A stretch of DNA of 64,000 nucleotides from Brevibacterium rongguiense (lineage in GTDB: Bacteria; Actinomycetota; Actinomycetes; Actinomycetales; Brevibacteriaceae), in NCBI RefSeq assembly GCF_009857845.1, contig NZ_WWEQ01000002.1, forward strand, positions 1-64,000. The letters are read 5' to 3'. The notes under the pieces were generated by a model. It saw nothing but the letters and a program-made list of their open reading frames with translations. It was not told where the DNA came from and ran no database searches. Below are positions 15,052 to 37,524 of this stretch, one piece after another (the stretch's first letter is position 1; the number at the start of each line of letters is the position of its first letter). A program made the position numbers and the translations under genes.

Positions 15052-17181
15052 ATGCCGCAGGAGAATTCGCGAATCCGGATCGGAATCGATACCGGGGGCA
15101 CGTTCACCGATGTGGTGGCGTTCAACGAGGCCACCGGCGAGCTGACGACCACGAAGACGCCATCGACGCCCAGCAACCCCGCCGATGGGTTCATCAACGG
15201 CATCGACAAGGTGCTGGGCATCCTGGGAGCGTCCGGTGAAGACATCGTGGCGGTCAGCCACGGCACCACGGTTGCGACCAACCAGCTCCTCGAGGGCAAG
15301 CTCGAGAAACTGGGCTTCATCACGACCGAAGGTTATGAGTTCGTGCTCGAGATCGCCCGGCAGGCGGTGCCGGATGGCTACGGCAACTCCTACTTCTGGG
15401 TGAAGCCCGACCGCATCGTTCCCGCTGACCTCGTCAAGACGGTGGGCGGTCGAATGGACTTCGAGGGCACGGAGGTCCGGCCATTCGATGAGCGTCAGGC
15501 CCGCGAGACCGCGCAGTGGTTCAAGGACCGCGGCATCAACACCCTGGGTGTGAACTTTCTGCACGCCTACGCCAATCCCGCCCACGAGCAGCGGATGCGG
15601 GAGATCCTCGAGGAGGTCCACCCCACTGCGATCGTGTCCCTCAGCTCGGAGGTGCTGCGGGAGTACCGCGAGTACGAGCGCTCCATGACCACACTGGTCG
15701 ACGCGGCCGTCAAACCCAAGGTGTCGGCCTACGTGACCAACATCCATGAGCGACTCGACGCATACACCGGGACCGCAGCGGGCAAGCGGGAGGCCATTCC
15801 CTTCTACATCATGAAGTCCAACGGAGGCGTGCTCTCCGCCGACGAGGTCATTCACCAGCCCATCACCACCGTGCTCTCCGGTCCAGCGGCGGGAGCCCTC
15901 GGAGCCGGGCTCATCGCCCGAGAAGCCGGCTTCGATAAGGTCCTCACCTGCGACGGAGGAGGAACCTCCACGGATGTCACTGTGGTCCTCGATGGCGAGC
16001 CCGCGCTCACGACCGAAGGTTCGGTGGGCGCGTACCCCTCGAAGATCCCCATGATCGACGTCGTCACCGTGGGCGCCGGGGGCGGGTCGATCGCGTGGAC
16101 GACTGCGGAGGGCCAGCTCAAGGTCGGCCCCCAATCCGCAGGCGCCGACCCGGGGCCGATCTGCTACGGCAACGGTGGTACTGAGCCGACGATCACCGAC
16201 GCCCACGTACTGCTGGGGCGCATCCCTCCGCATCTGCTGGGGGGTGAGATCCCCCTCGATGCCGAGGCGGCACGCAGCGGGATCGCCGCTCTCGGCTCGC
16301 GCCTGGGACTGAGCACGGAGAAGGCGGCCACGGGAATCCTCGAGATCTCCGCGTGGAACCAGGCGAACGCGCTCCGCCAGATCTCGGTCAAACGCGGGCT
16401 CGACGTGCGCGACTTCATGCTCACAACCTTCGGCGGTTCGGGCTCCCTCCTCGCCTGCACCCTCGTCGACATCCTCGACCTCGCCGGGGTCGTGGTGCCC
16501 CTGAATCCCGGGAACGTCTCCGCATTCGGGCTGCTCACGGTCGACGTGAAGAACGACTACGTGCAAACGCACGTTTCCCGCGATGACCGGTTGGACCTCG
16601 AGGAAATCGGCGCCGTGTTCACCGGCCTGCAGGACCGCGCCACCCAGGCGCTGCGCAACGAGGGGTTCGCCGATGACGACCACGTCTTCGATCGCTCCGT
16701 TGACCTGCGCTACTTCGGCCAGGCATTCGAGGTGCGGGTGAATGCGCCGCAGGGGGCCATCTCGCGCGAATGGGCGGACGCGGTGACCCGGGCATTCCAT
16801 GCCGAGCACCGCCAGCTCTACGGCTACGACTTCGCAGACGCGGACGATCAGCACGTGGAATGGGTCAACCTGCGCGTCTCCGGGGTAGGGCCCATCACCC
16901 GCCCGGCAACCCGCAGCATCGCAGCCGCCGAAGGGGCCGCGCCGCTCGCGGAACGGGCGCGCACGGCCACGCGTGCCGTGTGCTTCGACGCCGCCGACGG
17001 CTATGCGGACAGCGAGGTCTACTGGCGGCCCGAGCTCTTGGCGGGTGACCGCATCCACGGCCCCGCCATCATCGAGGAGTTCGGCTCCACCGTTCCCCTT
17101 CACCCCGGTTTCACCGCCGCGATCGACTCCGCCGCGAACATCATCATCACCCGCAGTACAGGCCAGGAGGCAGCACAGTGA
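15052..17181 (+). CDS. hyuA: Hydantoinase A / N-methylhydantoinase-type subunit (ATP-dependent)
   Basis: A 709-residue member of the hydantoinase/oxoprolinase family, starting at ATG 15052 with GGAAGGA upstream. The N-terminal actin-fold ATPase opens with RIGIDTGGTFTDVVAFNE and has SHGTTVATNQLLEGK and LSGPAAGALGAGLIAREAGF followed by CDGGGTSTDVTVV. With HyuB it hydrolyses a five-membered amide ring such as hydantoin, N-methylhydantoin or 5-oxoproline, usually coupled to ATP cleavage, in the cytoplasm. Its neighbours, hyuB and a carbamate kinase gene, are in the same operon; the next genes are molybdoenzyme accessories. The true ring substrate is open: an oxidised purine breakdown product would suit the context, and acetone carboxylase-like members of the superfamily are an alternative. 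Confidence 0.85.
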   Translation: MPQENSRIRIGIDTGGTFTDVVAFNEATGELTTTKTPSTPSNPADGFINGIDKVLGILGASGEDIVAVSHGTTVATNQLLEGKLEKLGFITTEGYEFVLEIARQAVPDGYGNSYFWVKPDRIVPADLVKTVGGRMDFEGTEVRPFDERQARETAQWFKDRGINTLGVNFLHAYANPAHEQRMREILEEVHPTAIVSLSSEVLREYREYERSMTTLVDAAVKPKVSAYVTNIHERLDAYTGTAAGKREAIPFYIMKSNGGVLSADEVIHQPITTVLSGPAAGALGAGLIAREAGFDKVLTCDGGGTSTDVTVVLDGEPALTTEGSVGAYPSKIPMIDVVTVGAGGGSIAWTTAEGQLKVGPQSAGADPGPICYGNGGTEPTITDAHVLLGRIPPHLLGGEIPLDAEAARSGIAALGSRLGLSTEKAATGILEISAWNQANALRQISVKRGLDVRDFMLTTFGGSGSLLACTLVDILDLAGVVVPLNPGNVSAFGLLTVDVKNDYVQTHVSRDDRLDLEEIGAVFTGLQDRATQALRNEGFADDDHVFDRSVDLRYFGQAFEVRVNAPQGAISREWADAVTRAFHAEHRQLYGYDFADADDQHVEWVNLRVSGVGPITRPATRSIAAAEGAAPLAERARTATRAVCFDAADGYADSEVYWRPELLAGDRIHGPAIIEEFGSTVPLHPGFTAAIDSAANIIITRSTGQEAAQ

Positions 17182-19193
17182 CGTCTACGCAGCAGACCTA
17201 TTCGGGTTCGATGCTCGGCGAACAGCCGCTGACCGGTGATGCCCTCGCGGCCTACATCGCCGCCGAGCCGATCAACCCCGCTGGCCTCCCCACGCCCTAC
17301 CAGCACGGCGAGCGACTGACTGCCGCGGGCACGACGGTCGACCCGATCGTGGTGGAGATCGTGGAGGGAACCCTTGCGAGTGTGGAGATGGAGGTCGAGA
17401 CCGCCATTTCCCGCACTTCGCGGTCCCCGATGATCCGCGACGCCCACGATTTCCGTGCCGGCATCCACGACAGGCAGCTGCGGAAGCTGACGGGGCGGTC
17501 CTACTCCGCACTCGTGCATCCCGTGGTCCGGGATTTCCCCATCGAGGAGATGAGGGAGGGCGACGTCTTCTTCCACAATGACGTCTACGAGTCCGAGGGC
17601 GGCATCGGCCACCTCCCGGACATGTGCGTGACGGTGCCGGTGTTCTCCGATGGGAAGGTGGTCTGCTTCGTCCAGGCCTTCGGACACCACGACGACATCG
17701 GAGGAGCCTGCCCGGGTTCGATGCCCTCGGGTGCGACGAGCGTGTTCGAAGAGGGCCTCATGATCCCGCCCATCAAACTGTGGGATGCCGGCAGGCCCAA
17801 CCGGGCCGCGCTGAGGATCATGACGCGAAATTCGCGGATGCCCGATTCGCTCTCCGCTGACCTCGACGCCGAATGCTCCGCCTGCCTGATGGGCGCCCGG
17901 CGGCTGGGCGAGCTGTTCGCCCGCTACGGAGTGGACACCGTCGAGGCCGCGTTCGACACGATCCTCGACAACACCACCGAGATCTACCGGCGGGAGATTC
18001 TTTCGAAGATCCCCGATGGGCAGTACGTGTGGGAGGACTATGCGGAGCACGATGGAGTCTCCGACCCCATGCTCCATACTCAGCGGATCACGCTGACGAA
18101 GGTCTCGACGGGGGGGCCCGATGACGGGCCACGGCTCATCGTCGACTTCACCGGCACTGCCGCCCAGGCAGCGGGGCCGATCAACCACTGCGGCGACTAC
18201 GTGGGCGGGAACTTCCTCAAGAAGTGGCTCGCCCCCATTCTCCGCAACCTCGCCGACAGCCCCGAGCGGATGGCGGAGCTGGACGTCAACGAGGGCATCG
18301 TGCCGCTCATCGAGATGCGATTCCCCGAGAAGGGAACGCTGCTCACCCCCGTGTTCCCAGGCCCCACGAATGCGCGCACCTTCGTGATCCTTCGCCTGCT
18401 GGGCGTCCTTGCGGGCGTTGTGGCGAAGGCCGTCGATGGGCAGATGCCCGCTGACCAGGAGACGATCCGCTATACCGGCGTCTATGGCAAGGACCGGGAC
18501 GGGAATGACTACCTCATGCGCGAGGTGCTCGGCGGTGGGTCCGGTGGGCGCTATTACGCGGACGGGGAGGACACGATCCACGTGGTGCCCGACTCGCGCA
18601 ATCTCCCGACGGAATTCACCGAATCGCGCTTCCCCTTCCGGGTGGAGCGGCTCGGTCTGGCCCAGGACTCCGGCGGCGCCGGCCGCTACCGAGGCGGGCT
18701 CGGCTATGAGAAGCACATCCGCATGCTCAAGGATGGGAACTTCATGTCGATCGCCGACCGATCCATCCTCGCGTGCTGGGGAGTCAAGGGCGGCAAGGCA
18801 GGCAGGCCGTTCGAGGTCACCATCGAACCCGGCGGCGCCCATGAGCGCACGGTGGACGCGCTTGCCGATGCGGAGCCGATTGCCGCAGGTGAGGTAGTGC
18901 GGATCCGCACGACGGGCGGCGGGGGATGGGGCGACCCGCTGGAGCGCCCCTACGGCGAGGTGCTGCGCGACGTGCAGTGGGGCAAGGTCAGTGCTGATGG
19001 AGCGCGCGACTCCTATGGGGTCGTGATTTCCGGTGCGGCGGACAACATCGCCGTGGACGCGGCGGGCTCGGACGGACTGCGTCAGCGGATGCGGGCCGAG
19101 CGCAGCGCTGCAGAGCCCTTCTTCGACCGTGGGCCCGGCTTCGCCGCCCTCAGCGGCGACGGTTCGCAGGCCCCTGCGGTCGACTGGGTGTGA
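17178..19193 (+). CDS. hyuB: Hydantoinase B / oxoprolinase-type subunit
   Basis: A 671-residue partner of HyuA, starting at GTG 17178 and overlapping its stop by GTGA. Family marks include TAISRTSRSPMIRDAHDFRA, the segment FFHNDVYESEGGIGHLPDMC, VDFTGTAAQAAGPINHCGDY and the C-terminal TTGGGGWGDPLERPYGEV. Asp and His in the second segment resemble the metal-site residues of this family. The first 65 residues (before VDPIVVEIVEGTLASVEMEV) form an extension not found in the shortest homologues. Together HyuA and HyuB make a hetero-oligomer that opens cyclic amides. The four-base overlap suggests equal production of the two subunits. Confidence 0.85.
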   Translation: MTSTQQTYSGSMLGEQPLTGDALAAYIAAEPINPAGLPTPYQHGERLTAAGTTVDPIVVEIVEGTLASVEMEVETAISRTSRSPMIRDAHDFRAGIHDRQLRKLTGRSYSALVHPVVRDFPIEEMREGDVFFHNDVYESEGGIGHLPDMCVTVPVFSDGKVVCFVQAFGHHDDIGGACPGSMPSGATSVFEEGLMIPPIKLWDAGRPNRAALRIMTRNSRMPDSLSADLDAECSACLMGARRLGELFARYGVDTVEAAFDTILDNTTEIYRREILSKIPDGQYVWEDYAEHDGVSDPMLHTQRITLTKVSTGGPDDGPRLIVDFTGTAAQAAGPINHCGDYVGGNFLKKWLAPILRNLADSPERMAELDVNEGIVPLIEMRFPEKGTLLTPVFPGPTNARTFVILRLLGVLAGVVAKAVDGQMPADQETIRYTGVYGKDRDGNDYLMREVLGGGSGGRYYADGEDTIHVVPDSRNLPTEFTESRFPFRVERLGLAQDSGGAGRYRGGLGYEKHIRMLKDGNFMSIADRSILACWGVKGGKAGRPFEVTIEPGGAHERTVDALADAEPIAAGEVVRIRTTGGGGWGDPLERPYGEVLRDVQWGKVSADGARDSYGVVISGAADNIAVDAAGSDGLRQRMRAERSAAEPFFDRGPGFAALSGDGSQAPAVDWV

Positions 19194-19200
19194 GACGCCC

Positions 19201-20148
19201 ATGAGGGTTCTGGTCGCACTGGGCGGCAATGCGATGACCGGCCCCGACGGCGACGCTTCACCGGACAGCCAGCGTCGCGCCATCGCGGGAGCCGCCGTGC
19301 ACCTGGCGGACCTCGTGGCTGCCGGTCACGAGGTCGTCGTCTCCCACGGCAACGGACCGCAGGTGGGCAACATCATGCGCAAGAACGAGCTCGCCGCCTC
19401 CGAGCTGCCGCCGGTCAGTCTCGACTGGTGCGGTGCGCAGACCCAGGGCACCCTGGGCTTTACGCTCGTCAATCGCATCGAGAAGGAGCTTGGCGCGCGG
19501 GGAATCGAGCGCGGCGTGGTCGCGCTCATCACGCGCACCGTCGTGGATCCGGAGGATCCGGCATTCGAGAACCCGGTCAAACCGGTCGGCTCCTACCAGG
19601 ATGCCGAGCACGCGCGCGCGATGACGGCGCACGGGCAGGTGTGGAAGGACTTCGGAGCCCGGGGATGGCGACGCGTCGTGGCCTCGCCGACTCCGCTTCG
19701 CATCCTCGAGACCCCCACCGTCGAACTGCTGGCCGATGCCGGCTGGGTGGTCGTGGCGGCCGGCGGCGGCGGCGTGCCCGTCGTGCCCGATGGCACGGGC
19801 TACAACGGAGCATCGGCTGTCATCGACAAGGACCTGAGTGCGGCGCAGCTGGCGATTTCTGTCGGGGCGGATCGGCTGATCATCGCCACGGACGTGTCGT
19901 GCGCCGTCGCGGGGTTCGGGACCGCCTCCGCGCGGGACATCGGCCCGATCACGGCAGCGGAGCTGCGCGGGATCAGCGAATCGGGCACATTCGCCTCGGG
20001 TTCCATGGGACCGAAGGTCGAGGCGGTGCTCCGCTTCGTGGAGGCCGGCGGCCCGGTCGGGGTCATCGCCGCCCTCGATGCTCTTCCCGAAGCCGTGGCA
20101 GGCGCCGCGGGGACAGTGGTCACGGCGGTCGCCGGCGCGGCCGACTAG
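19201..20148 (+). CDS. arcC: Carbamate kinase
   Basis: A 315-residue kinase that makes ATP and carbamate from carbamoyl phosphate and ADP when run in the catabolic direction. Amino-acid kinase fold motifs are intact: VALGGNAMTG near the N-terminus, VVSHGNGPQVGNIMRKNELA, and VAAGGGGVPVV followed by IDKDLSAAQLAISVGADRLI. Seven bases separate it from hyuB, so it is in the same operon. No arginine deiminase or ornithine carbamoyltransferase gene lies near; instead the oxamate carbamoyltransferase family proteins at 24081-28005 are the likely source of carbamoyl phosphate, as in the E. coli allantoin pathway with its AllK kinase. It may also balance the ATP spent by HyuAB. Confidence 0.9.
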   Translation: MRVLVALGGNAMTGPDGDASPDSQRRAIAGAAVHLADLVAAGHEVVVSHGNGPQVGNIMRKNELAASELPPVSLDWCGAQTQGTLGFTLVNRIEKELGARGIERGVVALITRTVVDPEDPAFENPVKPVGSYQDAEHARAMTAHGQVWKDFGARGWRRVVASPTPLRILETPTVELLADAGWVVVAAGGGGVPVVPDGTGYNGASAVIDKDLSAAQLAISVGADRLIIATDVSCAVAGFGTASARDIGPITAAELRGISESGTFASGSMGPKVEAVLRFVEAGGPVGVIAALDALPEAVAGAAGTVVTAVAGAAD

Positions 20149-20151
20149 GAT
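20146..20151 (+). promoter_or_regulatory. Possible internal -10 box before the MocA-like gene
   Basis: TAGGAT overlaps the arcC stop codon and ends seven bases before ATG 20159, the same spacing seen at other leaderless starts in this window. It may give extra transcription of the molybdoenzyme accessory genes. Confidence 0.3.
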
Positions 20152-20158
20152 CGTCCAG

Positions 20159-20833
20159 ATGATGGCGACCTCCCGCCCGCGGCTCAGTGCGGTGCTCCTA
20201 GCGGCCGGGGTGGGTTCGCGGCTGGGCTGTCCCAAGGCGCTGCTGCGGATGCCGGACGGCACGCCGCTCATCGCCGAGCAGTCCCGCAGAATGGCTGCGG
20301 TGGAACCGCTCGAGTCGATCGTCGTGCTCGGAGCGCGGGCGGGCAGTGCCGTGCCGCTGGTGCCGCACGGTGTTCGTACGGTGATCTGCGAGGACTGGGC
20401 CCGCGGGCTGTCGGCCTCACTGCGCGCGGGGCTGTCAGCCGCAGCCGCCGGTGCCCCGTCGGCCGTTCTCGTCATGCTCGCCGACCTTGTCGACGTTCCC
20501 GCAACCGCGCACGCCCGGCTGGCGGGTGCCGTCGTCAACGGCACCGCCCGTCCGCCTGCCGAGGCGCTCGCCAGGTGTGCGTGGAATGGGCACCCGGGGC
20601 ACCCCGTCGTCTTCGGCGCGGGGCTGTTGGAGGCGGTGATGGCCAGCGCCAGCGGTGACACCGGTGCTCGTCGCTACCTGCGCGAGCACGCGGCGCAAAC
20701 CGTCGCAATCGAGTGCGCCGATCTCCTCGCACCGGGCATGAGCGGCGGGTTCGATATCGACACCCGTGAGGCCGCAGAGCAGCGGGGTATGCGCATCCCG
20801 GCGCCCGAAAAAGGAGTGGAAGCACATGGTTGA
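20159..20833 (+). CDS. MobA/MocA-like nucleotidyltransferase
   Basis: A 224-residue protein (a second ATG at 20162 is equally possible). The N-terminus AVLLAAGVGSRLGCPKALLR is the glycine-rich nucleotide-binding loop of MobA-like NTP transferases, and AVLVMLADLVDVPA contains the metal-binding Asp. Such proteins attach CMP or GMP to the molybdopterin cofactor. Because the Mo hydroxylase in this locus belongs to the xanthine dehydrogenase family, which uses the cytosine dinucleotide form, a MocA-type cytidylyltransferase is the best guess. The segment WNGHPGHPVVFGAGL, with its G-HP pattern, supports MocA over MobA. It is coupled to the MoxR gene by an eight-base overlap. Confidence 0.75.
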   Translation: MMATSRPRLSAVLLAAGVGSRLGCPKALLRMPDGTPLIAEQSRRMAAVEPLESIVVLGARAGSAVPLVPHGVRTVICEDWARGLSASLRAGLSAAAAGAPSAVLVMLADLVDVPATAHARLAGAVVNGTARPPAEALARCAWNGHPGHPVVFGAGLLEAVMASASGDTGARRYLREHAAQTVAIECADLLAPGMSGGFDIDTREAAEQRGMRIPAPEKGVEAHG

Positions 20834-21749
20834 GCGGCACGACCCCGCCCAGGCCGCAGGCGATGGGGTGCTTTCTTCTCCGGCCGCCGTGCGCCAGGCA
20901 CTGGCCGCGCAGGGCTATCTGGCCGAGCCCGATCTCTCCGCAGCCTGCTTTCTCGCCTCCCGCCTGACCCGCCCGCTCCTCTGCGAAGGACCGCCCGGAG
21001 TGGGCAAGACGAGTCTGGCCGCCGCCCTTGCTGCCCTGACCGGTGGCCCGCTCATTCGGCTCCAGTGCTATGACGGCCTCGATTCCACTCACGCGCTGTA
21101 CGACTGGGACTTCGCCGCGCAGATCCTCCATATCCGTACGATCGAGGCGCAGGCGAAGGCCCTGGGGCGGCCGATCGGCGCGCGGGAGCTGGCAGACGAG
21201 CTTCACGACCGCCGCTTTCTGCTGGCCCGGCCAGTGCTGCAGGCACTCGAGTCGTCGACCGAACGCGGCAGAGCGGTGCTGCTCATCGACGAAATCGATC
21301 GCGCCGACGACGAGTTCGACGCGCTCCTGCTCGAGGTCCTCTCCGAATGGTCGGTCACTGTGCCCGAGTTCGGCACCATCACAGCGGCGATTCCTCCGCT
21401 TGTCATCCTCACGTCCAACAGGACGCGCGAGCTCCACGACGCACTGCGGCGGCGTTGCCTCTACCACTGGTTCGCCCAGCCCGACGCCGACCAGGAGGAG
21501 CGCATCCTCGCCCAGCGCGTCCCCGAATCCGCAGCTCGCCTGCGCGCGGCGGTCGTCGCCGAGGCCGGCCGACTGCGCGCCGCCGGTCCGGCCAAGCCTC
21601 CAGGCACGGCCGAGACGATCGACTGGCTGCGGGCCCTGAGTGCCCTCGGGGTCGAGGAGCTCCATCAGCCCGCCGCGCGCGCAGCGCTGAGCGCAGTGCT
21701 CAAGGATGCCGACGACGTCGCTCGGTTCGGCGGTGACGATCGTGCCTGA
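20826..21749 (+). CDS. MoxR-family AAA+ ATPase (CoxD-like)
   Basis: A 307-residue AAA+ ATPase from ATG 20826. Walker A is GPPGVGKTSLAA near residue 60; Walker B is VLLIDEIDRADDEFDALLLE, with sensor 1 in PLVILTSNRTREL and the arginine-finger region DALRRRCLYHWF. MoxR proteins act with VWA-domain partners to insert metal or sulfur centres; in carbon monoxide dehydrogenase operons CoxD and CoxE mature the Mo active site. Here the next gene encodes exactly such a VWA partner, and the Mo hydroxylase genes lie at 31400-35398. It should therefore help to activate that enzyme. Confidence 0.85.
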   Translation: MVERHDPAQAAGDGVLSSPAAVRQALAAQGYLAEPDLSAACFLASRLTRPLLCEGPPGVGKTSLAAALAALTGGPLIRLQCYDGLDSTHALYDWDFAAQILHIRTIEAQAKALGRPIGARELADELHDRRFLLARPVLQALESSTERGRAVLLIDEIDRADDEFDALLLEVLSEWSVTVPEFGTITAAIPPLVILTSNRTRELHDALRRRCLYHWFAQPDADQEERILAQRVPESAARLRAAVVAEAGRLRAAGPAKPPGTAETIDWLRALSALGVEELHQPAARAALSAVLKDADDVARFGGDDRA

Positions 21750-22863
21750 ACTCGCGGGTGTGCTCGCCGCCTTCGCGGGGGATCTGCGACGTGCGGGACT
21801 GCCGGCGCCACCGAGCGCCGTGGCAGACCTCCAGGCGGCCGTCGCCGAGGTGGGCCCACTCGATCGGGCACGGGTGTGCGCCGCTTCGCGGGCGGTGATC
21901 TGTCGGGACCCCGAACAGCTCGCGGTGCACGATCGTGTTTTCGCCCGCTTCTTCGCCTCCGGCGCGCCGCCGTTCGTGCGCTCCCGCGCGCAGGTCGAGG
22001 TCCCGGAGCCCGCCGCCGCTCAGGCTGGGGGCCCGCCGCCCGCCGGAGTCGGGACACAGGACATGCAGGCAGGGGCCAGCCGGCGGGAGATCCTGCGCCG
22101 TGCGGATCTGGGGCGCTCGGAGCTGCGCGGAGAGGCGGTCGAGTTGATCGACGAAGTCCGGTTCGGCCCGGCGCTGCGCCGCACTCGGCGCCTGCGCCGT
22201 GCACGTGCGGGGCGGCCGGAGCTGCGGCGGGTGGTGCGCCAGCTCCTCCGCAGTGAGGAATTGGAGCGACTTCCCCGACGCGCCCCCGCGCAGCGGGCCC
22301 GGCGGGTGACGGTCATCTGCGATGTGTCGGCTTCGATGGAGCAGTGGATGGCCGCGAGCCTGCGCTTCGCGCGGCGGGCCGCACTCGAAACGGGAGCTCG
22401 CTGCTTTGCCGCCGGGACCCGCCTCAGTGAGATCACCGACATGCTGAGGTCCGGTGCTGCGAGCCCCGCCATTGCCCGCGCGCGCGAGGCGGTTCCGGAC
22501 CTCGGAGGCGGAACCAGGCTCGGTGACGTCCTCGCAACCCTGCTAGCCGAGCACTCGACGGCCGTCCGGGCCAGCGTCGTCGTCCTCATCAGCGACGGGT
22601 GGGAGCAGGGAGACTTCGCCGCCCTCGAGGCCGCATCGACTCGGCTGCGGCGGCTCGCTCACCGCTTCGTCTGGGTGAACCCGCGGTCTGGCCGTGCCGG
22701 ATTCTCCCCGGCGGCGCGTGGCATGAGGCTTGCCGCCGCGCAGGCGCACGTGCTCATTGCCGGCACAGACGTGCGTGATTGGCAGGCGGCGGCCGATGCG
22801 ATTTCGGCCTTGCGGCTCTCCACCGGAGCGAATCGGGTGAGCGGGGCGGTCGCCGATGCCTGA
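21733..22863 (+). CDS. CoxE-like protein with VWA domain
   Basis: A 376-residue protein; GTG 21733 or GTG 21742 are both possible starts and overlap the end of the MoxR gene. The N-terminal half is helical and Arg-rich with several long alpha segments. The C-terminal half from about residue 190 is a von Willebrand A domain: RVTVICDVSASMEQWMAASL contains the DxSxS metal-dependent adhesion site, and VVVLISDGWEQGDFAALEAA the second metal-site Asp. This layout matches CoxE, partner of the CoxD ATPase in maturation of Mo hydroxylases. It acts in the cytoplasm. Its last bases overlap the xdhC start. Confidence 0.8.
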   Translation: MTIVPELAGVLAAFAGDLRRAGLPAPPSAVADLQAAVAEVGPLDRARVCAASRAVICRDPEQLAVHDRVFARFFASGAPPFVRSRAQVEVPEPAAAQAGGPPPAGVGTQDMQAGASRREILRRADLGRSELRGEAVELIDEVRFGPALRRTRRLRRARAGRPELRRVVRQLLRSEELERLPRRAPAQRARRVTVICDVSASMEQWMAASLRFARRAALETGARCFAAGTRLSEITDMLRSGAASPAIARAREAVPDLGGGTRLGDVLATLLAEHSTAVRASVVVLISDGWEQGDFAALEAASTRLRRLAHRFVWVNPRSGRAGFSPAARGMRLAAAQAHVLIAGTDVRDWQAAADAISALRLSTGANRVSGAVADA

Positions 22864-29720: not shown

Positions 29721-29739
29721 TCTGCGCGGTTGCCCGGGT

Positions 29740-29920: not shown

Positions 29921-31393
29921 ATGGGGATGTTCGCGTGGAAGCTGCACGGCGACGGCAGGCACGTGGGCCCGAACGAGGTGGTCGCTCCGGACGAGCGATT
30001 GTCGTGGGGCCGCACCGTGGGGCTCGGCATCCAGCACGTCTTCGCCATGTTCGGCGCGACGTTCGTGTTCCCCGTCATCATGGGGCTCAACCCGCAGCTC
30101 GCGGTCATGATGAGCGGTGTCGGCACGATCATCTTCCTTCTCATCGTCAAGGGCAAGGTACCCAGCTATGTGGGTACGTCCGCCGCCTTCGTCGGGGGCG
30201 TCGCAGCCGTGACCGCCCAGGGCGGAACGCCTGCGGAGGTGACCGGCGCCATCCTGGTCTCCGGCATCGTGCTGGCGCTCGTGGGCGTCTTCATCCACTT
30301 CGCGGGAGCCGCCGCCCTGACGAAGGTGCTGCCTCCCGTTGTGACCGGTGGTGTCGTGATGCTCATCGGCTTCAACCTGGCCCCCGTCGTCGCGCAGACC
30401 TATTGGCCCCAGGACCAGTGGGTGGCGCTCCTGGTGATGGCGTTCGTCATCCTCTTCTCCGTCTGCGTCCCCGGTTTCCTGGGGCGCATCGCCGTCTTCC
30501 TCGGACTCGTGTTCGGCTATGCGCTCTCCTGGGTCTTCGACATGGTCTTCGGGCAGATCACCGCGTTCAATGCTGTGACCGGGGCCGTGGACACCCACTT
30601 CCGCGTCGACTGGTCAGGGGTGCAGTCCGCTGCCTGGGTGGGCTTTCCTCCGCTGAGCGATCCGGCAGCGGGGATCGTCGGCATCCACCTGCCGGTGTTC
30701 AACGCCGCGGCGATCATCGTCATGCTCCCGGGCGTCATCGCGCTGGTCGCGGAGAACGTCGGGCACGTCAAGGCCGTGGAGGAGATGACGGGGCGCTCCC
30801 TGGACGGCTCCATGGGACGCGCGGTGATCGGCGACGGTGTTGCGACAGTCGTCGCAACCGCCGTCGGAGGGTCCCCCACGACCACCTACGCGGAGAACAT
30901 CGGCGTGATGGCCGCGACCCGCGTGTACTCGACGGCCGCCTACTGGGTGGCCGCGATCGTCGCGATTCTCTTCGGGCTGTCCCCCAAGTTCGGTGCGCTC
31001 ATCTCCGCGGTGCCCGGTGGTGTGCTGGGAGGGATCACGGTCGTGCTCTACGGCATGATCGGGATGCTCGGCGCCAAGATCTGGATTGAGAACAAGGTCA
31101 ACCTCGCGACGCCCCTCAATATGGTGCCCGTCGCCGCTGGCCTCATCCTGGCGATCGGCGGCGTGAGCCTGAAGTTCTCGGACAAGTTCACGCTCTCCGG
31201 CATCGCACTCGGCACCATCGTGATGGTGCTTATGTACCATGTAGCGCACTGGCTTGCACCGAAATCGCTGGTCAGGGCGTCCGAGGCGGATGCTGGTGGA
31301 ACGGCGATCACGGTCGGCCGAGAGGGCCAGGAAGGCCGTATCGGCGAAGAACTGCAGCACGACCATGGGCGCCACGCCAGGAGAGTCGAGTGA
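29921..31393 (+). CDS. NCS2-family nucleobase:cation symporter
   Basis: A 490-residue membrane transporter with about 12-14 hydrophobic segments, from ATG 29921 with GGGGAGAAG upstream. Family signatures include SWGRTVGLGIQHVFAMFGAT, the TM8 motif LVAENVGHVKAVEEMTGRS and TM9-10 GGSPTTTYAENIGVMAATRV, all at the expected places for xanthine, urate or uracil permeases of the nucleobase-ascorbate family. It takes up a purine-like base with H+ or Na+. The Glu in AENVGHV is the known substrate-binding position in UraA and XanQ. The order with the Mo hydroxylase suggests that the imported base is the hydroxylase substrate. Substrate choice between xanthine, urate and others cannot be made here. Confidence 0.85.
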   Translation: MGMFAWKLHGDGRHVGPNEVVAPDERLSWGRTVGLGIQHVFAMFGATFVFPVIMGLNPQLAVMMSGVGTIIFLLIVKGKVPSYVGTSAAFVGGVAAVTAQGGTPAEVTGAILVSGIVLALVGVFIHFAGAAALTKVLPPVVTGGVVMLIGFNLAPVVAQTYWPQDQWVALLVMAFVILFSVCVPGFLGRIAVFLGLVFGYALSWVFDMVFGQITAFNAVTGAVDTHFRVDWSGVQSAAWVGFPPLSDPAAGIVGIHLPVFNAAAIIVMLPGVIALVAENVGHVKAVEEMTGRSLDGSMGRAVIGDGVATVVATAVGGSPTTTYAENIGVMAATRVYSTAAYWVAAIVAILFGLSPKFGALISAVPGGVLGGITVVLYGMIGMLGAKIWIENKVNLATPLNMVPVAAGLILAIGGVSLKFSDKFTLSGIALGTIVMVLMYHVAHWLAPKSLVRASEADAGGTAITVGREGQEGRIGEELQHDHGRHARRVE

Positions 31394-31399
31394 TATTCC

Positions 31400-32310
31400 A
31401 TGAAACCTTCCCCCTTCACCATGCACCGCCCCACCACGCTCGACGAGGCACTTGAACTCCTCCGCGCCTACGGAGCGAAGGGAAAGGTCATCGCCGGCGG
31501 ACAGAGCCTGGTGCCGGTGCTCAACATGCGACTCGCGGCCCCGGAGCACCTCATCGACATCACGGCGCTGACCGGTCTTGACGGGATCTCCGTGGCCGAG
31601 GGGTCCGTCGAGGTGGGTGCCCTCGTGACGCACCGCAGGCTCGAGCGGAGCCCGGAAGCGCGGGCGGCCCAGCCCCTGCTGCGGGCGGCACTGGGCTGTG
31701 TGGCGCACCCGGCGATCCGCAACCGGGGAACGACGGTGGGCTCACTCGCGCACGCGGACCCGAACGGCGAGATGCCGGCGATCCTCGCGCTCACCGGCGG
31801 CTGGGTGACCGCACGCGGTGATTCCGGAGAGCGCAGGATCGGCTGGGAGGACTTCAACGTGGGCCCGCTGGAAACGTCCTTGGAGCCGCACGAGCTGTTG
31901 ACGAGCGCGACCTTCCCCGCCCTGGCACCGGGCCAGCGCGGTGGCTTCAAAGAGCTGACCCGAAGGACGGGGGACTACGCCCTGGCCGGTGTGGGCATGA
32001 TTCTGACCATAGAGAACGAGACGATGACGGGCCTGCGCGCATCGTTTGTCTCGGTCACCGATATGCCGGTCGTGGTGGACCTTGGCGAAGCCGTTGCGGG
32101 GGTTCCGGTCGCCGCAGCGGATTCCGCAGCCCCCGCCGTCGCGGCCGCCGTGGAAGCATGCGTTGACCCCGTCGGAGATATCCATGCCACCGCCGACTAC
32201 CGGCGTCGCCTGGCCGGCGTGCTCGCCGGGCGGCTGCTGGAGGAATTGGCCCAACCGCCCGCCGGGTCCGCCCAGCCGCGCGATTCGCTCGCCCCCGCAG
32301 AAGGAGCCGC

Positions 32311-32314
<4 letters not shown>
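31400..32314 (+). CDS. Molybdenum hydroxylase, FAD subunit (XdhB/CoxM type)
   Basis: A 304-residue flavoprotein with the two FAD pyrophosphate loops of this family: AGGQSLVPVLNMRLAAPEHL and ATIRNRG-like HPAIRNRGTTVGSLAHADPN, plus the C-terminal CO_deh_flav_C domain (ELTRRTGDYALAGVGMIL). It carries electrons from the iron-sulfur subunit to NAD+ or another acceptor. Seven bases after the permease stop, and overlapping the next gene by four bases (ATGA), it is clearly in the same operon. The 4Fe-4S insert of 4-hydroxybenzoyl-CoA reductase is absent, so an aerobic hydroxylase is more likely. Confidence 0.9.
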
Positions 32315-32765
<451 letters not shown>

Positions 32766-32769
<4 letters not shown>

Positions 32770-32954
32770 GCCGCGCCGCCGAACTCAGGCGGGGCCATGG
32801 CCCCCGCGCCGCCGGCTCGGACCCGAACGGCACCGCGCCGGCCGACCGGCCAGGAGCCGGGGAGGGCAGCGAGGTCACCGGCGAGGAGCAGGAGGCGGCG
32901 CGCGACGCCGCGGAGGTTGTGGAGCACCTCGGAAGCGGACAGGAGCGGCGATGA
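32766..32954 (+). CDS. Small coupled ORF between the 2Fe-2S and Mo subunits
   Basis: A 62-codon frame that starts at a GTG overlapping the stop of the 2Fe-2S gene (GTGA) and stops inside the ATGA that begins the Mo-subunit gene. It is rich in Arg, Gly, Ala and Glu with a C-terminal helix (EEQEAARDAAEVVEHLG). It bridges two subunits with no gap, which preserves translational coupling. It could be a real small protein, a split-off tail of the 2Fe-2S subunit caused by an early stop, or merely a coupling device. No known family. Confidence 0.4.
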
Positions 32955-35398
32955 CGACCCGGATGTTCGGCCAGAAGGTCGCGCGCCGCGAGGACCCCCG
33001 CCTCGTCACCGGCAACGGACGCTATCTCGATGACCTGGGCGCCGGTGCGCTGGCCGCGGCGTTCGTGCGCAGCCCCCACGCGCACGCGGACATCGTCGAC
33101 ATCGACGTGTCCGGGGCCATTGACGTTGAGGGTGTGATCGCCGTCTGGACCCACGAGGATCTGCCGGGCCAGGCCGCGGAGCGTCTTCCGATGCTCCTTC
33201 CGCACCCGTCGATCGTCGCACCGATGACGGGTTTTGCGCTGGCCAAGGACCACGTGAACTTCGTGGGCGAACCGATTGCGATGGTGATCGCAGAAGACCG
33301 CTACGTGGCCGAGGATGCGGCCGGCAGGATCGAAGTCGACTACGAGTTTCTGCCCCCGGTTGTGGGTGTGAGGCAGGCCCGCGCCGCGGAGCGGACCGTG
33401 CACGAGTGCGCCCCGGACAATGTCGCCGCTCACTACGTGCAGGAGGTCGGCGAAGCCCCGGCGAGCATCGATGCAGCTGCGCATGTGCTCGAGCTCGAAC
33501 TGGATATCGAACGCAGCGCCTGCATGCCCATGGAGGGCAAGGGCGTTCTCGCCCAGTGGAATACCGATGACGAGAGTCTCCTCGTGCACTCGTCTACGCA
33601 GACGAGCACCGGCCTGCGAGCCGCGTTGGCGGCCAAGCTCGAAGTACCGCTGACGAAGGTGGAGGTCATCGCGCCCGATGTGGGCGGGGCCTTCGGGGTG
33701 AAGATCAACCATCCATGGCCGGAGGAACTCGCCGTGGCCTGCGCCGCCCGTGCCCTGCGCGTGCCCGTGAAGTGGACCGAGGACCGGCGCGAGCACTTCA
33801 TCTCATCGGCCCACGAGCGGGCGCAGGTGCAGCACGTGCGGGTCGGCTTCGACGACGACGGGCGCATTCTGGGGCTCGACGTGAAGTTCTGGCACGACAA
33901 CGGTGCCTATCTGCCGTACGGCGTGATCGTCCCCCTGAATACCTCCACACACGTCATGGGCCCCTACGCCGTGCCTGCGTACCGGTGCGAATACTGGTCG
34001 CTGTACACGAACACCGTCATTGTGACGCCCTACCGGGGGGCGGGGCGCGCCCACGCGGTCTTCATGATGGAGCGCACGATGGACGCCATCGCCGACCGCC
34101 TGGGCCTCGACCGTGCGGAGGTGCGGCTGAACAACTTCGTCCGCGAGTTCCCCCACCCGATGGGCGTCGTCATGCAGGATGGCGCCGAAGGGTGTATCGA
34201 CTCGGGTGACTTCGTCACTTCGATGGCCAAGCTCAAGGCCCTCGTGGGATGGGATGAGTTCCGGGAGTATCGGGAGCGAGCCCGTGCTGAGGGCCGCCGG
34301 GTCGGGCTCGGGATCGGATGCTATATCGAGAGCACGGGTGCCGGGCCCTATGAGGGCGGGCACATCGAGGTCGAGACGTCCGGACGCGTGAACGTCTGGA
34401 CGGGGCTGACCACACAGGGCCAGGCGCACGCGACCGTCTTCGCCCAGATCGTCGCCGACGAACTGGGCGTGCCGATGGAAGATGTGCACGTCATCACCGG
34501 CGACACCCGGAAGATGCCGTATTCGGTGGGGACGTGGGGCTCGCGCGGCGGTGTCATGGCAGGCAACGCGCTCCATCTGACCGCCAAGAAGGTCAAGGCG
34601 AAGGCACTGCGCATCGCCGCGGAAGCCCTCGAGGCGTCGCCGGAGGATCTTGAGATCGTCGACGGCATGGTGGGCGTCAAGGGCGATCCGAGTTCGGCCA
34701 TGCCGTTGGCGGCCGTCTCGGTGCTGTCGAATCCGCTGCGCTACGCGTTCGACGAAAGCGCCAAGGCAGCCACTCAGTTCGCCCGTCCGGCCAAGATGGA
34801 CGCGCCGCCTGTGGCACCGGGGGATGAACCGGGTCTCGACGAGCAGGACTTCTTCTCGCCGATGCGCTCAACTGTGGCGAACGGCATGCACGCCGCGATC
34901 GTGGAGATCGATCCGGAAACCGCGGACATCTCCGTGCTGCGCTATTGCGTGGTCCACGACTGCGGGCCGATGATCAACCCCATGGTGGTCGAAGGACAGG
35001 TGCACGGGGGAGTGGCGCAGGGCATCGGGGGAGCGCTGTACGAGCGGATGGCCTATGACTCCGACGGCCAGCTCCTCAATGCCTCATTCATGGATTTCCT
35101 CATGCCATTCGCATCCGAGGTTCCCACGGTCGAGACCGATCATCTGGAGTCGCCCAGCCCGCTCAACCCGCTGGGGATCAAGGGGGCGGGTGAGGCAGGG
35201 ACGATTCCGACCGCTGCCGTGATCGCCTCGGCCATCGAAGACGCAGAGGGGTTCGAAATCCGGCAGATGCCGCTGGACCCCTCAACGCTGTGGGAGCTGC
35301 GCCGCCACAGCGCCAACGGGGAGATTGACCGCCTGCGGCGCAGCGCACAGCAGACCGACGGGCCTGCTGCGAACGAGACCACCCGCACATCCGCGTGA
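32951..35398 (+). CDS. Molybdenum hydroxylase, large Mo-binding subunit (XdhA/form II CoxL type)
   Basis: An 815-residue catalytic subunit. Aldehyde oxidase/xanthine dehydrogenase marks include FGQKVARREDPRLVTGNGRY, APDVGGAFGVKINHPWPEEL, TPYRGAGRAHAVFMMERTMD near residue 361, GTWGSRGGVMAGNALHLTA and the C-terminal LGIKGAGEAGTIPTAAVIAS, whose Glu near residue 747 is the catalytic base. The AYXCSFR loop of true CO dehydrogenases, with its Cu-ligand Cys, is absent, so this is not a CO oxidiser. It should hydroxylate a carbon next to nitrogen in an N-heterocycle. Xanthine or a related base is suggested by the PucR and NCS2 neighbours, but the sequence does not prove the substrate. Confidence 0.9.
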   Translation: MTTRMFGQKVARREDPRLVTGNGRYLDDLGAGALAAAFVRSPHAHADIVDIDVSGAIDVEGVIAVWTHEDLPGQAAERLPMLLPHPSIVAPMTGFALAKDHVNFVGEPIAMVIAEDRYVAEDAAGRIEVDYEFLPPVVGVRQARAAERTVHECAPDNVAAHYVQEVGEAPASIDAAAHVLELELDIERSACMPMEGKGVLAQWNTDDESLLVHSSTQTSTGLRAALAAKLEVPLTKVEVIAPDVGGAFGVKINHPWPEELAVACAARALRVPVKWTEDRREHFISSAHERAQVQHVRVGFDDDGRILGLDVKFWHDNGAYLPYGVIVPLNTSTHVMGPYAVPAYRCEYWSLYTNTVIVTPYRGAGRAHAVFMMERTMDAIADRLGLDRAEVRLNNFVREFPHPMGVVMQDGAEGCIDSGDFVTSMAKLKALVGWDEFREYRERARAEGRRVGLGIGCYIESTGAGPYEGGHIEVETSGRVNVWTGLTTQGQAHATVFAQIVADELGVPMEDVHVITGDTRKMPYSVGTWGSRGGVMAGNALHLTAKKVKAKALRIAAEALEASPEDLEIVDGMVGVKGDPSSAMPLAAVSVLSNPLRYAFDESAKAATQFARPAKMDAPPVAPGDEPGLDEQDFFSPMRSTVANGMHAAIVEIDPETADISVLRYCVVHDCGPMINPMVVEGQVHGGVAQGIGGALYERMAYDSDGQLLNASFMDFLMPFASEVPTVETDHLESPSPLNPLGIKGAGEAGTIPTAAVIASAIEDAEGFEIRQMPLDPSTLWELRRHSANGEIDRLRRSAQQTDGPAANETTRTSA

Positions 35399-35422
35399 AC
35401 GCGGCGAAGCAGAGGAGAACCC

Positions 35423-36082
35423 GTGCAGATCATCTCGACGGCTCATATGAGCGCCGATCCGGATACCGCCTGGCGGGCCTTCCACGACGAGCGCATTCTG
35501 GCGAAGACCATTCCCGGCGTCGAATCGCTCACCCCGGCCGGGGAGGGTGCGTACGACGTCGTGCTGACGATGGGCGTCGCCGCGATCAAGGGCACGTACA
35601 AGGGAACGGTGTCGTTTTCCCAAGAGGAGCCCACTAGCGCGTTCGTGCTGAGTGCCAAGGGCTCCGGCGGACCGGGGACGATCGGCGCCGACATCGCGGT
35701 GCGGCTCGCCACAGCGCCCGACGGCGGCACGGACATCGACTGGACCGCAGATGCGATTCTGGGCGGTGCGATCGGCGGGGTCGGTCAGCGGATGCTCTCC
35801 GGCGTGGCGAAGCGCATCGCCGCGAAATTCTTCACGGACATCGACGCGGCCATTCAGGCCGGCCCCGAAGCCGCGGCGGCAGAACCCCAGCCCGATGCAG
35901 CCTCCCCGGCCCCGATCGGCTCCCCCGCTGCCGAGCAATCGCGCGGTCGGGCGGCTCCCGCGCCCGTCCTTCCCGTCCACGCCCCGGGGCGCGGCGTGGG
36001 GGACTTCGCGGTCGGTGCCGCAGTCGGGGCGGGTGCCGCGCTGCTCGGCGTGTGCATCGGGCTGCTTGCGGGACGCCGGTGA
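35423..36082 (+). CDS. CoxG-like protein (SRPBCC domain, C-terminal membrane anchor)
   Basis: A 219-residue protein. Residues 1-145 are an SRPBCC/CoxG lipid-binding fold (HMSADPDTAWRAFHDERILA, ESLTPAGEGAYDVVLTMGVA, DWTADAILGGAIGGVGQRML). A Pro/Ala-rich stretch follows and the last 25 residues form a membrane anchor (AVGAGAALLGVCIGLLAG). In CO dehydrogenase operons CoxG recruits the enzyme to the cytoplasmic membrane. Here it probably does so for the purine-type hydroxylase and lets electrons pass to the respiratory chain. It ends in the four-base overlap GTGA with the amidase gene. Confidence 0.85.
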   Translation: MQIISTAHMSADPDTAWRAFHDERILAKTIPGVESLTPAGEGAYDVVLTMGVAAIKGTYKGTVSFSQEEPTSAFVLSAKGSGGPGTIGADIAVRLATAPDGGTDIDWTADAILGGAIGGVGQRMLSGVAKRIAAKFFTDIDAAIQAGPEAAAAEPQPDAASPAPIGSPAAEQSRGRAAPAPVLPVHAPGRGVGDFAVGAAVGAGAALLGVCIGLLAGRR

Positions 36083-37524
36083 CCGCAGTCGCGGACGAGC
36101 TTGCGTGGCTGTCGCTGCGGGAGCTGTCCGCCCTGCTGACCGCCGGTGAGCTCAGCGCGACCCAGACCGTCTCGGCGCACGTGGAGCGCGTCGCCCGGCT
36201 GAATCCGGCGCTCAACGCGGTTGTCACGTGGGAGCCGGAGACCGCACTCGCGAGCGCACGCGCGGTCGACGATGCGCGGGCAGCGGGGGTGCCGCTCGGT
36301 CCGCTGGCCGGCGTGCCGATGACGCACAAGGACACGCACGAGGTGGCCGGTATGCGCACCACCTGGGGCTCGCCCATCCGTGCCCACCACGTGTCCGAGC
36401 GGGACTGCCTCGTCGTAGCGCGCCTGCGCGCCGCCGGTGTGATCGCAACCGGCAAGACCAATGTCCCCGAATTCGCGGCCGGCGCGCACACGTTCAACCC
36501 CCTCTTCGGGACCACGGTGAATCCGTACGATCCGACCCGCTCGGCCGCCGGTTCGTCGGGCGGAGCGGCGGCGGTGATCGCCGCGGGCATTCAGCCCGCC
36601 GGCGACGGCTCGGATACCGGGGGCTCGCTGCGCTTGCCCGCCTCCTTCACCAATCTCGTCGGGCTCCGGCCGACCGACGGTTGGCTGCCCCACGCGATTC
36701 CGGAGAACCCGTGGGAGTGGCTGAGCCAAGACGGCTTCATGGCCCGTTCCGTGAGCGATGTCGCGCTGCTCATGGAGCTGTGCTCCGGTCCTGCCGCACT
36801 CGCCCCCCAGTCCAGGTGCGAACCGGGCGGCTTCACCGGGCCCGCGTTCGATGCGGACGCCGACTGGGAGCCTGAGCTGCGGACTCTGCGGGTCGGCTTC
36901 GCGCCTGATCTCGGGGGCCGCATCGAAGTCGAAGCCGAGGTGGCGGAGATCGTCGGTTCCGCGGCCCAGGTCTTCGACGATCTCGGAGCACGGGTTGCGT
37001 GGGAGGCCCCTGACCTCACTGCGGCAGCGGGAGTCTTCCGCGTGGCCCGGGCGTTCGAGTTCGGGTTCAACTACGGGTCGCTGCTCGACGCGCACGCCCA
37101 GCAGCTGAAACCCGCTCTGCGCGCGAACATCCAGGCCGGTCTCGACCTCTCCCGTGCGGACATCTTCGATGCGCTGCGTGAGCGCGCTCAGCTGCTGACC
37201 GCTATGGGCGACTTCTTCGCGCGCTGCGACGTTCTCGTCACCGTGACAAGCCAGGTGCTGCCGTTCGACTCCGATCTCGAATACCCGGCGGAGCTGAACG
37301 GAGCGCGGGTGACCGACTACCTGGCGTGGATGGAGGCGACGACGCTGATTTCGGCGACGGGCTGTCCCGCCGTGAGCGTTCCCGCCGGTTTCAGTGCGGC
37401 TGGGCTGCCCGTGGGATTGCAGATCGTCGGGCGGCCGGGGGTCGACGCTCAGGTGCTCCGAGTCGCGCGCGCATTCGAACTCGCAACGGGCTGGGGCCAG
37501 CGGAGGCCGGAACTCGCAGTCTGA
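36079..37524 (+). CDS. Amidase of the amidase-signature family
   Basis: A 481-residue amidase starting at GTG 36079 over the coxG stop. The Ser-cisSer-Lys triad is complete: Lys in GVPMTHKDTHEVAGM, the cis-Ser in RSAAGSSGGAAAVIAAGI and the nucleophile Ser in GDGSDTGGSLRLPASF. It would hydrolyse a linear amide in the cytoplasm. As the last gene of the hydroxylase operon it may finish the pathway, for instance by deamidating oxamate to oxalate or a carbamoylated acid from the hydantoinase step. Allophanate hydrolases and GatA share the fold, but no C-terminal allophanate domain or gatCB neighbours are present. Confidence 0.85.
   Translation: MTAVADELAWLSLRELSALLTAGELSATQTVSAHVERVARLNPALNAVVTWEPETALASARAVDDARAAGVPLGPLAGVPMTHKDTHEVAGMRTTWGSPIRAHHVSERDCLVVARLRAAGVIATGKTNVPEFAAGAHTFNPLFGTTVNPYDPTRSAAGSSGGAAAVIAAGIQPAGDGSDTGGSLRLPASFTNLVGLRPTDGWLPHAIPENPWEWLSQDGFMARSVSDVALLMELCSGPAALAPQSRCEPGGFTGPAFDADADWEPELRTLRVGFAPDLGGRIEVEAEVAEIVGSAAQVFDDLGARVAWEAPDLTAAAGVFRVARAFEFGFNYGSLLDAHAQQLKPALRANIQAGLDLSRADIFDALRERAQLLTAMGDFFARCDVLVTVTSQVLPFDSDLEYPAELNGARVTDYLAWMEATTLISATGCPAVSVPAGFSAAGLPVGLQIVGRPGVDAQVLRVARAFELATGWGQRRPELAV

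Follow-up and report, generated by a model that had tools for sequence, protein, structure and literature searches.

The oxidative breakdown of pyrimidines has been known biochemically since the 1950s (PMC3758960), and the characterised barbiturase of this route comes from Rhodococcus erythropolis strain JCM 3132 (PMC3758960, PMC3961730). Escherichia coli AllFGH is described as an oxamic transcarbamylase (PMC11326118), and the anaerobic purine cluster yge/yqe of E. coli as containing a D-hydantoinase, xanthine dehydrogenase (XDH), the carbamoyltransferase YgeW and a carbamate kinase (PMC4016543). The pathway of R. erythropolis comprises uracil/thymine dehydrogenase, barbiturase and ureidomalonase, the last of which releases malonate and urea. 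To our knowledge, barbiturase seems to be the only enzyme of this pathway with an assigned gene. Here we analysed the first 64,000 nucleotides of contig NZ_WWEQ01000002.1 of Brevibacterium rongguiense (GCF_009857845.1, a 3.1 Mb draft genome, 99% complete), hereafter the window, in which a locus at 15052–37524 encodes an NCS2 permease, a three-subunit molybdenum (Mo) hydroxylase CoxMSL, the ATP-dependent hydrolase HyuAB, all three subunits AllF, AllG and AllH, and a carbamate kinase. We consider it probable, at roughly 70%, that this locus encodes oxidative pyrimidine catabolism, in which uracil or thymine would be degraded via barbiturate and ureidomalonate. This reading is based on the UraA-type permease, barbiturase as a partner in related genomes, the R. 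erythropolis locus, malonate-type genes in related clusters and the clade to which AllG belongs.

Compared with the R. erythropolis pathway, the likeness lies in the permease, Mo hydroxylase, amidase and HyuAB genes that adjoin its barbiturase gene, and the acyl-urea intermediate is expected to be identical. However, barbiturase is missing from the window genome, where AllFGH and carbamate kinase come in addition, whereas no AllG was found in a genome search of R. erythropolis NBRC 15567. An amidase-signature (AS) amidase in the window is a possible candidate for the ureidomalonase step, and the presence of AllFGH with carbamate kinase suggests carbamoyl phosphate rather than urea as the expected product. 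The locus shares with E. coli AllFGH–AllK the same three subunit families and a carbamate kinase, and the same kind of acyl-urea phosphorolysis is proposed, but here AllF and AllG are fused, AllG falls in a different clade, another substrate is proposed and the linked loci tested carry no allantoin genes. Within the family of HyuAB, N-methylhydantoinase, 5-oxoprolinase and caprolactamase, both subunits with their Pfam domains are present and N-methylhydantoinase is the closest solved chain, though the context in the window would be pyrimidine oxidation and not creatinine or lactam use. The yge/yqe cluster and the allantoate-splitting UGTCase of Rubrobacter share the logic of Mo hydroxylase, ring opener, carbamoyltransferase and carbamate kinase, but their ring opener and carbamoyltransferase are non-homologous and their substrates are purines. 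The Rut and reductive uracil pathways resemble the locus in the proposed substrate and in a RutG-like permease and differ in that hydroxylation would be the first step here; no Rut or dihydropyrimidine genes were found among the window genes scanned. Nitrogen limitation in Mycobacterium smegmatis induces a RutG-like permease and phenylhydantoinases, and the passages of that report on this response name none of the cox or ATP-dependent hyuAB genes of the cluster, so that it has no bearing here (PMC4617892). In the openly licensed PubMed Central literature, we found neither a paper assigning genes to pathway enzymes other than barbiturase nor a description of the cluster, of an AllFGH branch with ureidomalonate phosphorolysis or of a HyuAB step. 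The backbone biochemistry is already known, and the branch that would recover energy looks new.

The position of AllG beside the ncs2–cox block suggested uracil as a substrate, because barbiturate would be the oxidation product of uracil and its ring-opened form, ureidomalonate, is an acyl urea like oxalurate. A barbiturase was therefore predicted near AllG loci, and the barbiturase family (PF09663) was then found in 29 of 48 genomes with AllG. AllG itself was detected in 15 of 59 relatives, and an order-wide sample of 396 genomes gave 45 with the gene. Among 28 AllG loci of other genera, the pucR–ncs2–coxMSL block lay beside allFG in 17, AllG stood without the block in eight and three were on short contigs. 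With block-less genomes excluded, PF09663 was present in all 26 AllG genomes of other genera (the block itself was directly seen in 17 of them), in 24 cases on the AllG contig at 19–48 kb, and it was not found in any of the nine genomes in which AllG stands without this block (G244 among them is 67% complete, with a short contig). The residues Asn, His, Lys, Val and Ser/Ala form the Group VI barbiturate signature of the AtzD/Bar family (PMC3758960). Among 69 distinct barbiturase sequences, 64 showed N-H-K-V-S and four N-H-K-V-A, and one was incompletely aligned, covering the first three positions only; the nearest solved chain to the barbiturase of the relatives was Barbiturase 5HWE (670 bits) versus 319 bits for cyanuric acid hydrolase.

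The NCS2 permease of the window scored 191 bits against UraA and 56 bits against the uric acid–xanthine permease. Glutamates in both substrate-site helices, which have a role in UraA, were present in the window permease and in all 71 orthologous segments; these segments, like the sets of 84 and 79 for other genes, are distinct sequences and not independent genomes, as some genomes are present twice. One Brevibacterium genome carries two tandem ncs2 copies (L045, 15184 and 16742), 76% and 78% identical to that of the window. A second, distant NCS2 permease (about 29–30% identical) adjoins barbiturase in three Brevibacterium genomes (L083, 2598–4094; L090, 10816–12204; L091, 8153–9541) and lies between xdhC and allFG in a fourth (L105, 9502–10848); it is possibly a barbiturate importer. 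The AllF–AllG fusion matched the solved chains of FdrA (3dmy, 225 bits) and an AllG-like protein (3clq, 381 bits), and the AllH of the window is the sole Pfam AllH match in its genome. In a tree of 67 AllG rows, 46 formed a clade supported at 100/99, with the remaining unlinked rows, among them E. coli YlbE, falling outside, so that the AllG of the cluster is not orthologous to that of E. coli. This clade consists of 43 rows from HyuB-linked genomes together with G591 (which has hyuAB), G428 (80% complete) and G180 (on a very long branch, its placement unsure), and the HyuB-linkage label required four changes on the tree versus 19.9 with shuffled labels.

The gene set is more than a chance neighbourhood. 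The genes hyuA, hyuB, carbamate kinase, coxD, coxE, xdhC, allFG, allH, pucR, ncs2, coxM, coxS and coxL occurred in identical order in all 12 other Brevibacterium loci, which were retrieved by AllG alone and whose genes were located by tblastn (E ≤ 1e-8); the MobA-like gene lay within the operon in nine of the 12. In a class sample of 345 Actinomycetes genomes, an HyuB orthologue was found in 69, barbiturase in 68 and any AllG in 79, with HyuB and barbiturase together in 66, HyuB and AllG in 67, barbiturase and AllG in 66 and all three in 65 (Fisher p = 1e-55 to 1e-64, uncorrected for relatedness). The class and order samples are even draws from larger groups, and the HyuB search scored up to three candidates per genome at E ≤ 1e-200. 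HyuB without barbiturase was seen in the window genome (G000), G508 (80% complete) and G649, and HyuB without AllG in G419 (72% complete) and G649. Barbiturase without an HyuB match was seen in G591 and G596; the search missed G591, and on reading, its locus has hyuAB beside barbiturase, which reduces the genomes with AllG and without HyuB from 12 by search to 11. Distances were taken in 65 of 66, 62 of 67 and 61 of 66 genomes for the three pairs. Barbiturase and HyuB were co-located on a contig in 47 of 65 cases, no more than 50 kb apart in 46 of them, with a median distance of 7.5 kb, and AllG and HyuB shared a contig in 50 of 62, at up to 50 kb in 44, at 109–126 kb in five and at 1.7 Mb in one.

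We also scanned named contigs for HyuB and considered the best 80 of 586 loci, which include Brevibacterium, Intrasporangium, Terrabacter, Knoellia, Janibacter, Phycicoccus, Nocardioides, Rhodococcus and Kineosporia, with gene calls from a simple caller based on codon-position G+C. Within 10 kb of HyuB, these 80 loci contained coxL (52), ncs2 (35), carbamate kinase (57), barbiturase (44), a CN-hydrolase (31), an NmrA-like gene (50), amidase (12) and allFG (12); six had none of cox, ncs2, barbiturase, allFG and kinase, several of them being short contigs. A common order was ncs2–coxMSLG–(amidase or CN-hydrolase)–hyuA–hyuB–(NmrA-like)–...–kinase–barbiturase. Furthermore, in the stretch from hyuB to the kinase or close to it, 22 of the 80 loci encode a CoA_transf_3 protein and 17 encode an AccA/AccD-like carboxyltransferase; these genes would fit conversion of malonate to malonyl-CoA and acetyl-CoA.

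In R. erythropolis NBRC 15567 (L194, L160), genes for an acetyl-CoA carboxylase (ACC)-like carboxyltransferase, a CaiB-type CoA-transferase, barbiturase, amidase, an aminotransferase, ncs2, coxMSLG, hyuAB and the NmrA-like gene are consecutive. Barbiturase was present in five of nine Rhodococcus genomes reached through their loci, and an AllG search of these nine found none in six and, in the other three, an AllG type with a weak score (E about 1e-72). Four Rhodococcus genomes (L164, L165, L169 and L172) and G649 have cox–hyuAB with neither barbiturase nor cluster-type AllG. Given that Rhodococcus genomes keep cox–hyuAB without cluster-type AllG, no pair is more constant than cox–hyuAB, to which AllFGH and the kinase are an add-on. 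The pathway may thus have two endings, with urea formed in Rhodococcus and carbamoyl phosphate elsewhere.

An initial annotation of the window, made from its letters, had placed the permease, Mo hydroxylase, HyuAB, AllFGH and carbamate kinase in one catabolic system, and this view is borne out by the synteny and class-wide co-occurrence; profile scans likewise recovered every gene that it had named, in the same order and on the same strands. It had regarded the occurrence of only part of the set in other genomes as evidence against such a system, and partial sets were found in some lineages only, namely the nine Rhodococcus genomes with cox–hyuAB and without cluster-type AllG, five of which have barbiturase. 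The logic of its route, with an imported base, Mo-dependent hydroxylation, ATP-dependent opening, splitting of a ureide and ATP recovery by the kinase, is retained here, with a pyrimidine replacing the substrate that it had proposed.

Considering these results, we propose the following scenario from gene content and family assignments. The UraA-type permease would bring in uracil and perhaps thymine, which CoxMSL, a suitable three-subunit hydroxylase of the N-heterocycle type, may oxidise to barbiturate and 5-methylbarbiturate, respectively. HyuAB would open the barbiturate ring at the expense of ATP to give ureidomalonate (3-oxo-3-ureidopropanoate), which is one methylene longer than oxalurate. 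AllF–AllG and AllH may then phosphorolyse ureidomalonate to malonamate and carbamoyl phosphate, from which carbamate kinase would form ATP, CO2 and ammonia from ADP, refunding the ATP used by HyuAB, and the AS amidase may release the last ammonia to leave malonate. XdhC, CoxD, CoxE and the MobA-like protein are predicted to mature the Mo enzyme, and PucR to regulate the locus. Gene content, synteny, co-occurrence and the family and signature assignments are observed, whereas all of the catalytic steps, the direction in which AllFGH works and, most of all, what HyuAB acts on are inferred. The window probably represents a barbiturase-less relative that works like the oxidative pyrimidine pathway.

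Several observations weigh against this reading. NCBIfam names two of its enzymes otherwise: the barbiturase of the relatives is called cyanuric acid hydrolase (NF052395, 468 bits, over the cut-off of 360), an identity that we rejected on the signature and the nearest solved structure, and CoxL is called aerobic carbon monoxide (CO) dehydrogenase (NF040766, 1437 bits, over the cut-off of 950). Evidence for barbiturase, the pathway's main marker, comes from relatives, as PF09663 has no match in the window genome and is present in three of 13 Brevibacterium genomes, being absent from the other 10. The co-occurrence tests are uncorrected for kinship, G596 carries barbiturase with no HyuB match, and G454, a HyuB genome counted with AllG, has a divergent AllG type only. 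In almost every other genome HyuAB comes together with barbiturase, an odd pairing for two enzymes that would act on the same ring. In addition, amidase and barbiturase replace each other in Brevibacterium, so that barbiturase might have its substitute in the amidase and not in HyuAB: the amidase gene lies after coxG in nine of 12 other Brevibacterium loci and in the window, and the remaining three carry barbiturase instead (the region past coxL in G736 and G737 was left out of this reading). The AllG tree suggests that this exchange was a single event. A second, distant NCS2 permease (about 29–30% identical) adjoins barbiturase in three Brevibacterium genomes (L083, 2598–4094; L090, 10816–12204; L091, 8153–9541) and lies between xdhC and allFG in a fourth (L105, 9502–10848); it is possibly a barbiturate importer.

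The least secure point of the reading is what HyuAB acts on. The nearest solved chains to HyuA were N-methylhydantoinase (457 bits), 5-oxoprolinase (386 bits) and acetophenone carboxylase (274 bits), and since N-methylhydantoinase ranks over acetophenone carboxylase, a hydrolase is expected rather than a carboxylase. The HyuA and HyuB domains are complete and adjacent, and HyuAB reached the equivalog cut-off of neither the caprolactamase nor the acetophenone carboxylase model. HyuAB is likely to be the ring opener, its substrate being uncertain; barbiturate is suggested because no other candidate for ATP-dependent ring opening lies within the window and because cox–hyuAB persists in the five barbiturase-less genomes mentioned above. 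The window genome has a second Hydantoinase_B gene (C89:21962–23539; 503 bits versus 459 for that of the window). The idea that HyuAB generally replaces barbiturase was dropped, as the two lie in one operon and occur together in 66 of 69 HyuB genomes. An ATP-consuming, high-affinity route running next to a cheap one of low affinity would explain their coexistence, as would separate enzymes for uracil and thymine. A related alternative, unlikely on present evidence and yet the strongest that we considered, keeps the pyrimidine pathway and lets HyuAB serve another ring, most simply 5-methylbarbiturate derived from thymine, while the opening of barbiturate would fall to barbiturase or, in most Brevibacterium, to the AS amidase. 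Under this alternative HyuAB and barbiturase need not be redundant, and it is consistent with the complementarity of amidase and barbiturase in all 13 Brevibacterium genomes, including that of the window. However, it fits poorly with the retention of cox–hyuAB in L164, L165, L169, L172 and G649 and with Nocardioides loci, in which amidase and barbiturase are both present. Furthermore, we know of no AS amidase that opens rings of the barbiturate kind.

The initial annotation had suggested that a purine- or hydantoin-type base is hydroxylated, that HyuAB opens its five-membered ring and that AllFGH splits oxalurate into oxamate and carbamoyl phosphate. The oxamic transcarbamylase of E. coli (PMC11326118), the closeness of HyuA to N-methylhydantoinase among solved chains and PucR, named after purine catabolism, are in line with such a route, but we now regard it as improbable, given the UraA-type permease, barbiturase as the constant partner elsewhere, the separate AllG clade and the malonate-type CoA genes in related clusters. 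In addition, the window genome contains no allantoinase above threshold (best score 229 bits, cut-off 358), and no homologue of E. coli allB, allC, allD or allE was found at E ≤ 1e-8 in the 31 linked loci tested. On these results and the AllG clade, we rejected the textbook allantoin route, in agreement with that annotation.

Slightly less probable again is that two unrelated modules happen to be neighbours, with cox–hyuAB acting on an N-heterocycle and AllFGH with carbamate kinase on a ureide. The occurrence of cox–hyuAB without cluster-type AllG in Rhodococcus and the distances of more than 100 kb between AllG and HyuB in some genomes would suit such modules, whereas HyuB and AllG occur jointly in 67 of 69 HyuB genomes, in 44 of 62 within 50 kb, and carbamate kinase adjoins hyuAB in Brevibacterium and barbiturase elsewhere. 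The motif of form-I CoxL at the active site is AYxCSFR. A role of the locus in CO oxidation, with a CO dehydrogenase as the Mo enzyme, which the NF040766 label and the CoxD, CoxE and CoxG genes might imply, is very improbable, since CoxL carries not this motif but PYRGAGR (form II) in the window and in 84 of 84 orthologous segments, its nearest solved chains are the N-heterocycle hydroxylases quinoline 2-oxidoreductase (435 bits) and 6-hydroxypseudooxynicotine dehydrogenase (434 bits), ahead of CO dehydrogenases (416 and 354 bits), and the permease, HyuAB and AllFGH would be left unexplained.

The features of the locus are listed in Table 1. The carbamate kinase scored under the cut-offs of the remaining carbamate kinase models. 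The gene previously noted as MocA-like does encode an NTP transferase, but the NCBIfam NboR, MocA and PucB models all score under their cut-offs and the protein is better described as MobA-like. CoxS ends right behind CRCTGYQNIVEP, four relatives compared extend further, and about 180 bases separate its stop from coxL (32311–32951). Nine kilobases downstream of the locus, a deaminase and a cytosine permease share an operon at 46904–48852. The deaminase scored 149 bits against solved yeast-type cytosine deaminases versus 68 bits against tRNA adenosine deaminase, its NCBIfam matches being limited to TadA (69 bits against a cut-off of 150) and a low-scoring match to an anti-phage deaminase. This operon is a likely uracil feeder, as judged from its predicted products, and is not a conserved neighbour, since the pair was not found in the other loci compared.

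Table 1 Features of the proposed pyrimidine locus and the nearby cytosine operon in the window
Feature	Position	Strand	Supporting match
hyuA, ATPase subunit of ATP-dependent cyclic-amide hydrolase; candidate (methyl)barbiturate ring opener	15052..17181	+	Pfam Hydant_A_N/Hydantoinase_A/Hydant_A_C
hyuB, hydrolase subunit	17178..19193	+	Pfam Hydantoinase_B, 458 bits
Carbamate kinase (start codon inferred)	19201..20148	+	NF009007, 275 bits (cut-off 266)
MobA-like NTP transferase, probable Mo-cofactor nucleotidyltransferase (ORF; start possibly later)	20078..20833	+	Pfam NTP_transf_3, 94 bits
MoxR/MadB-type AAA ATPase (CoxD-like), putative Mo-enzyme maturation (start inferred)	20826..21749	+	NF047784, 253 bits (below cut-off 475)
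CoxE-type VWA protein, putative maturation	21706..22863	+	Pfam VWA_CoxE, 119 bits
XdhC-type maturation factor	22856..24022	+	Pfam XdhC_C, 142 bits; XdhC_CoxI, 101 bits
AllF(FdrA)–AllG fusion, candidate ureidomalonate carbamoyltransferase (start inferred)	24081..27101	-	NF004760, 385 bits (cut-off 433, just missed); Pfam AllG, 291 bits (cut-off 27)
AllH, third carbamoyltransferase subunit	27124..28005	-	Pfam AllH, 61 bits (cut-off 25)
PucR-type regulator	28041..29720	+	Pfam PucR, 108 bits; HTH_30, 68 bits
NCS2 permease, UraA/RutG type, candidate uracil importer	29921..31393	+	Nearest solved chain UraA
CoxM, Mo hydroxylase FAD subunit	31400..32314	+	Pfam FAD_binding_5, 145 bits
CoxS, Mo hydroxylase 2Fe-2S subunit, 152 aa	32311..32769	+	Pfam Fer2_2, 105 bits
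CoxL form II, Mo hydroxylase large subunit, candidate uracil/thymine dehydrogenase	32951..35398	+	Pfam MoCoBD_1/2
CoxG	35423..36082	+	Pfam COXG, 87 bits
AS-family amidase; candidate malonamate amidase or ureidomalonase-like step	36052..37524	+	Pfam Amidase, 315 bits
Cytosine deaminase, yeast type (outside the interval of the initial annotation)	46904..47482	+	Nearest solved chains
Cytosine permease	47482..48852	+	NF008241, 367 bits (cut-off 326)

Elsewhere in the window, a formate dehydrogenase-like molybdopterin oxidoreductase (51300–55019, −) consists of two open reading frames divided by one in-frame TGA at 54261–54263, which reads as a putative selenocysteine codon, and genes for 4Fe-4S and NrfD-like subunits adjoin it. 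Genes for tRNA-Sec (45262–45356, −; Rfam RF01852), SelA and a SelD-like AIR synthase-related protein are grouped at 43829–46662 and match this nearby selenocysteine gene. An amidohydrolase at 60264–61550 is nearest to the solved N-isopropylammelide isopropylaminohydrolase (253 bits), with bacterial cytosine deaminase at 85 bits, and a beta-lactamase-like fold protein at 62775–63758 (−) matched Pfam Beta-lactamase2 (118 bits), with all NCBIfam beta-lactamase models far under their cut-offs. The G+C content is 0.49–0.57 at 2001–6000 versus about 0.70 elsewhere, with few coding-like open reading frames called there, and an Rfam ALIL pseudoknot match at 6898–7027 (−; 51.5 versus a gathering score of 50) is probably due to chance.

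The database names CO dehydrogenase, oxamate carbamoyltransferase and cyanuric acid hydrolase are misleading for the locus and its relatives. The counts suggest that the system would be carried by about a fifth of the sampled Actinomycetes genomes (69 of 345). The odds appear even to us that it constitutes a widespread actinobacterial uracil/thymine pathway with a new AllFGH-type ureidomalonate carbamoyltransferase and a new ATP-dependent barbiturate hydrolase, HyuAB, whose ATP is refunded by carbamate kinase; if so, one locus would hold two new enzyme activities together with the genes for the uracil/thymine dehydrogenase, so far an orphan enzyme. The locus offers candidate genes for uracil/thymine dehydrogenase and, for the AllFGH carbamoyltransferases, a recently discovered family, a candidate second specificity.

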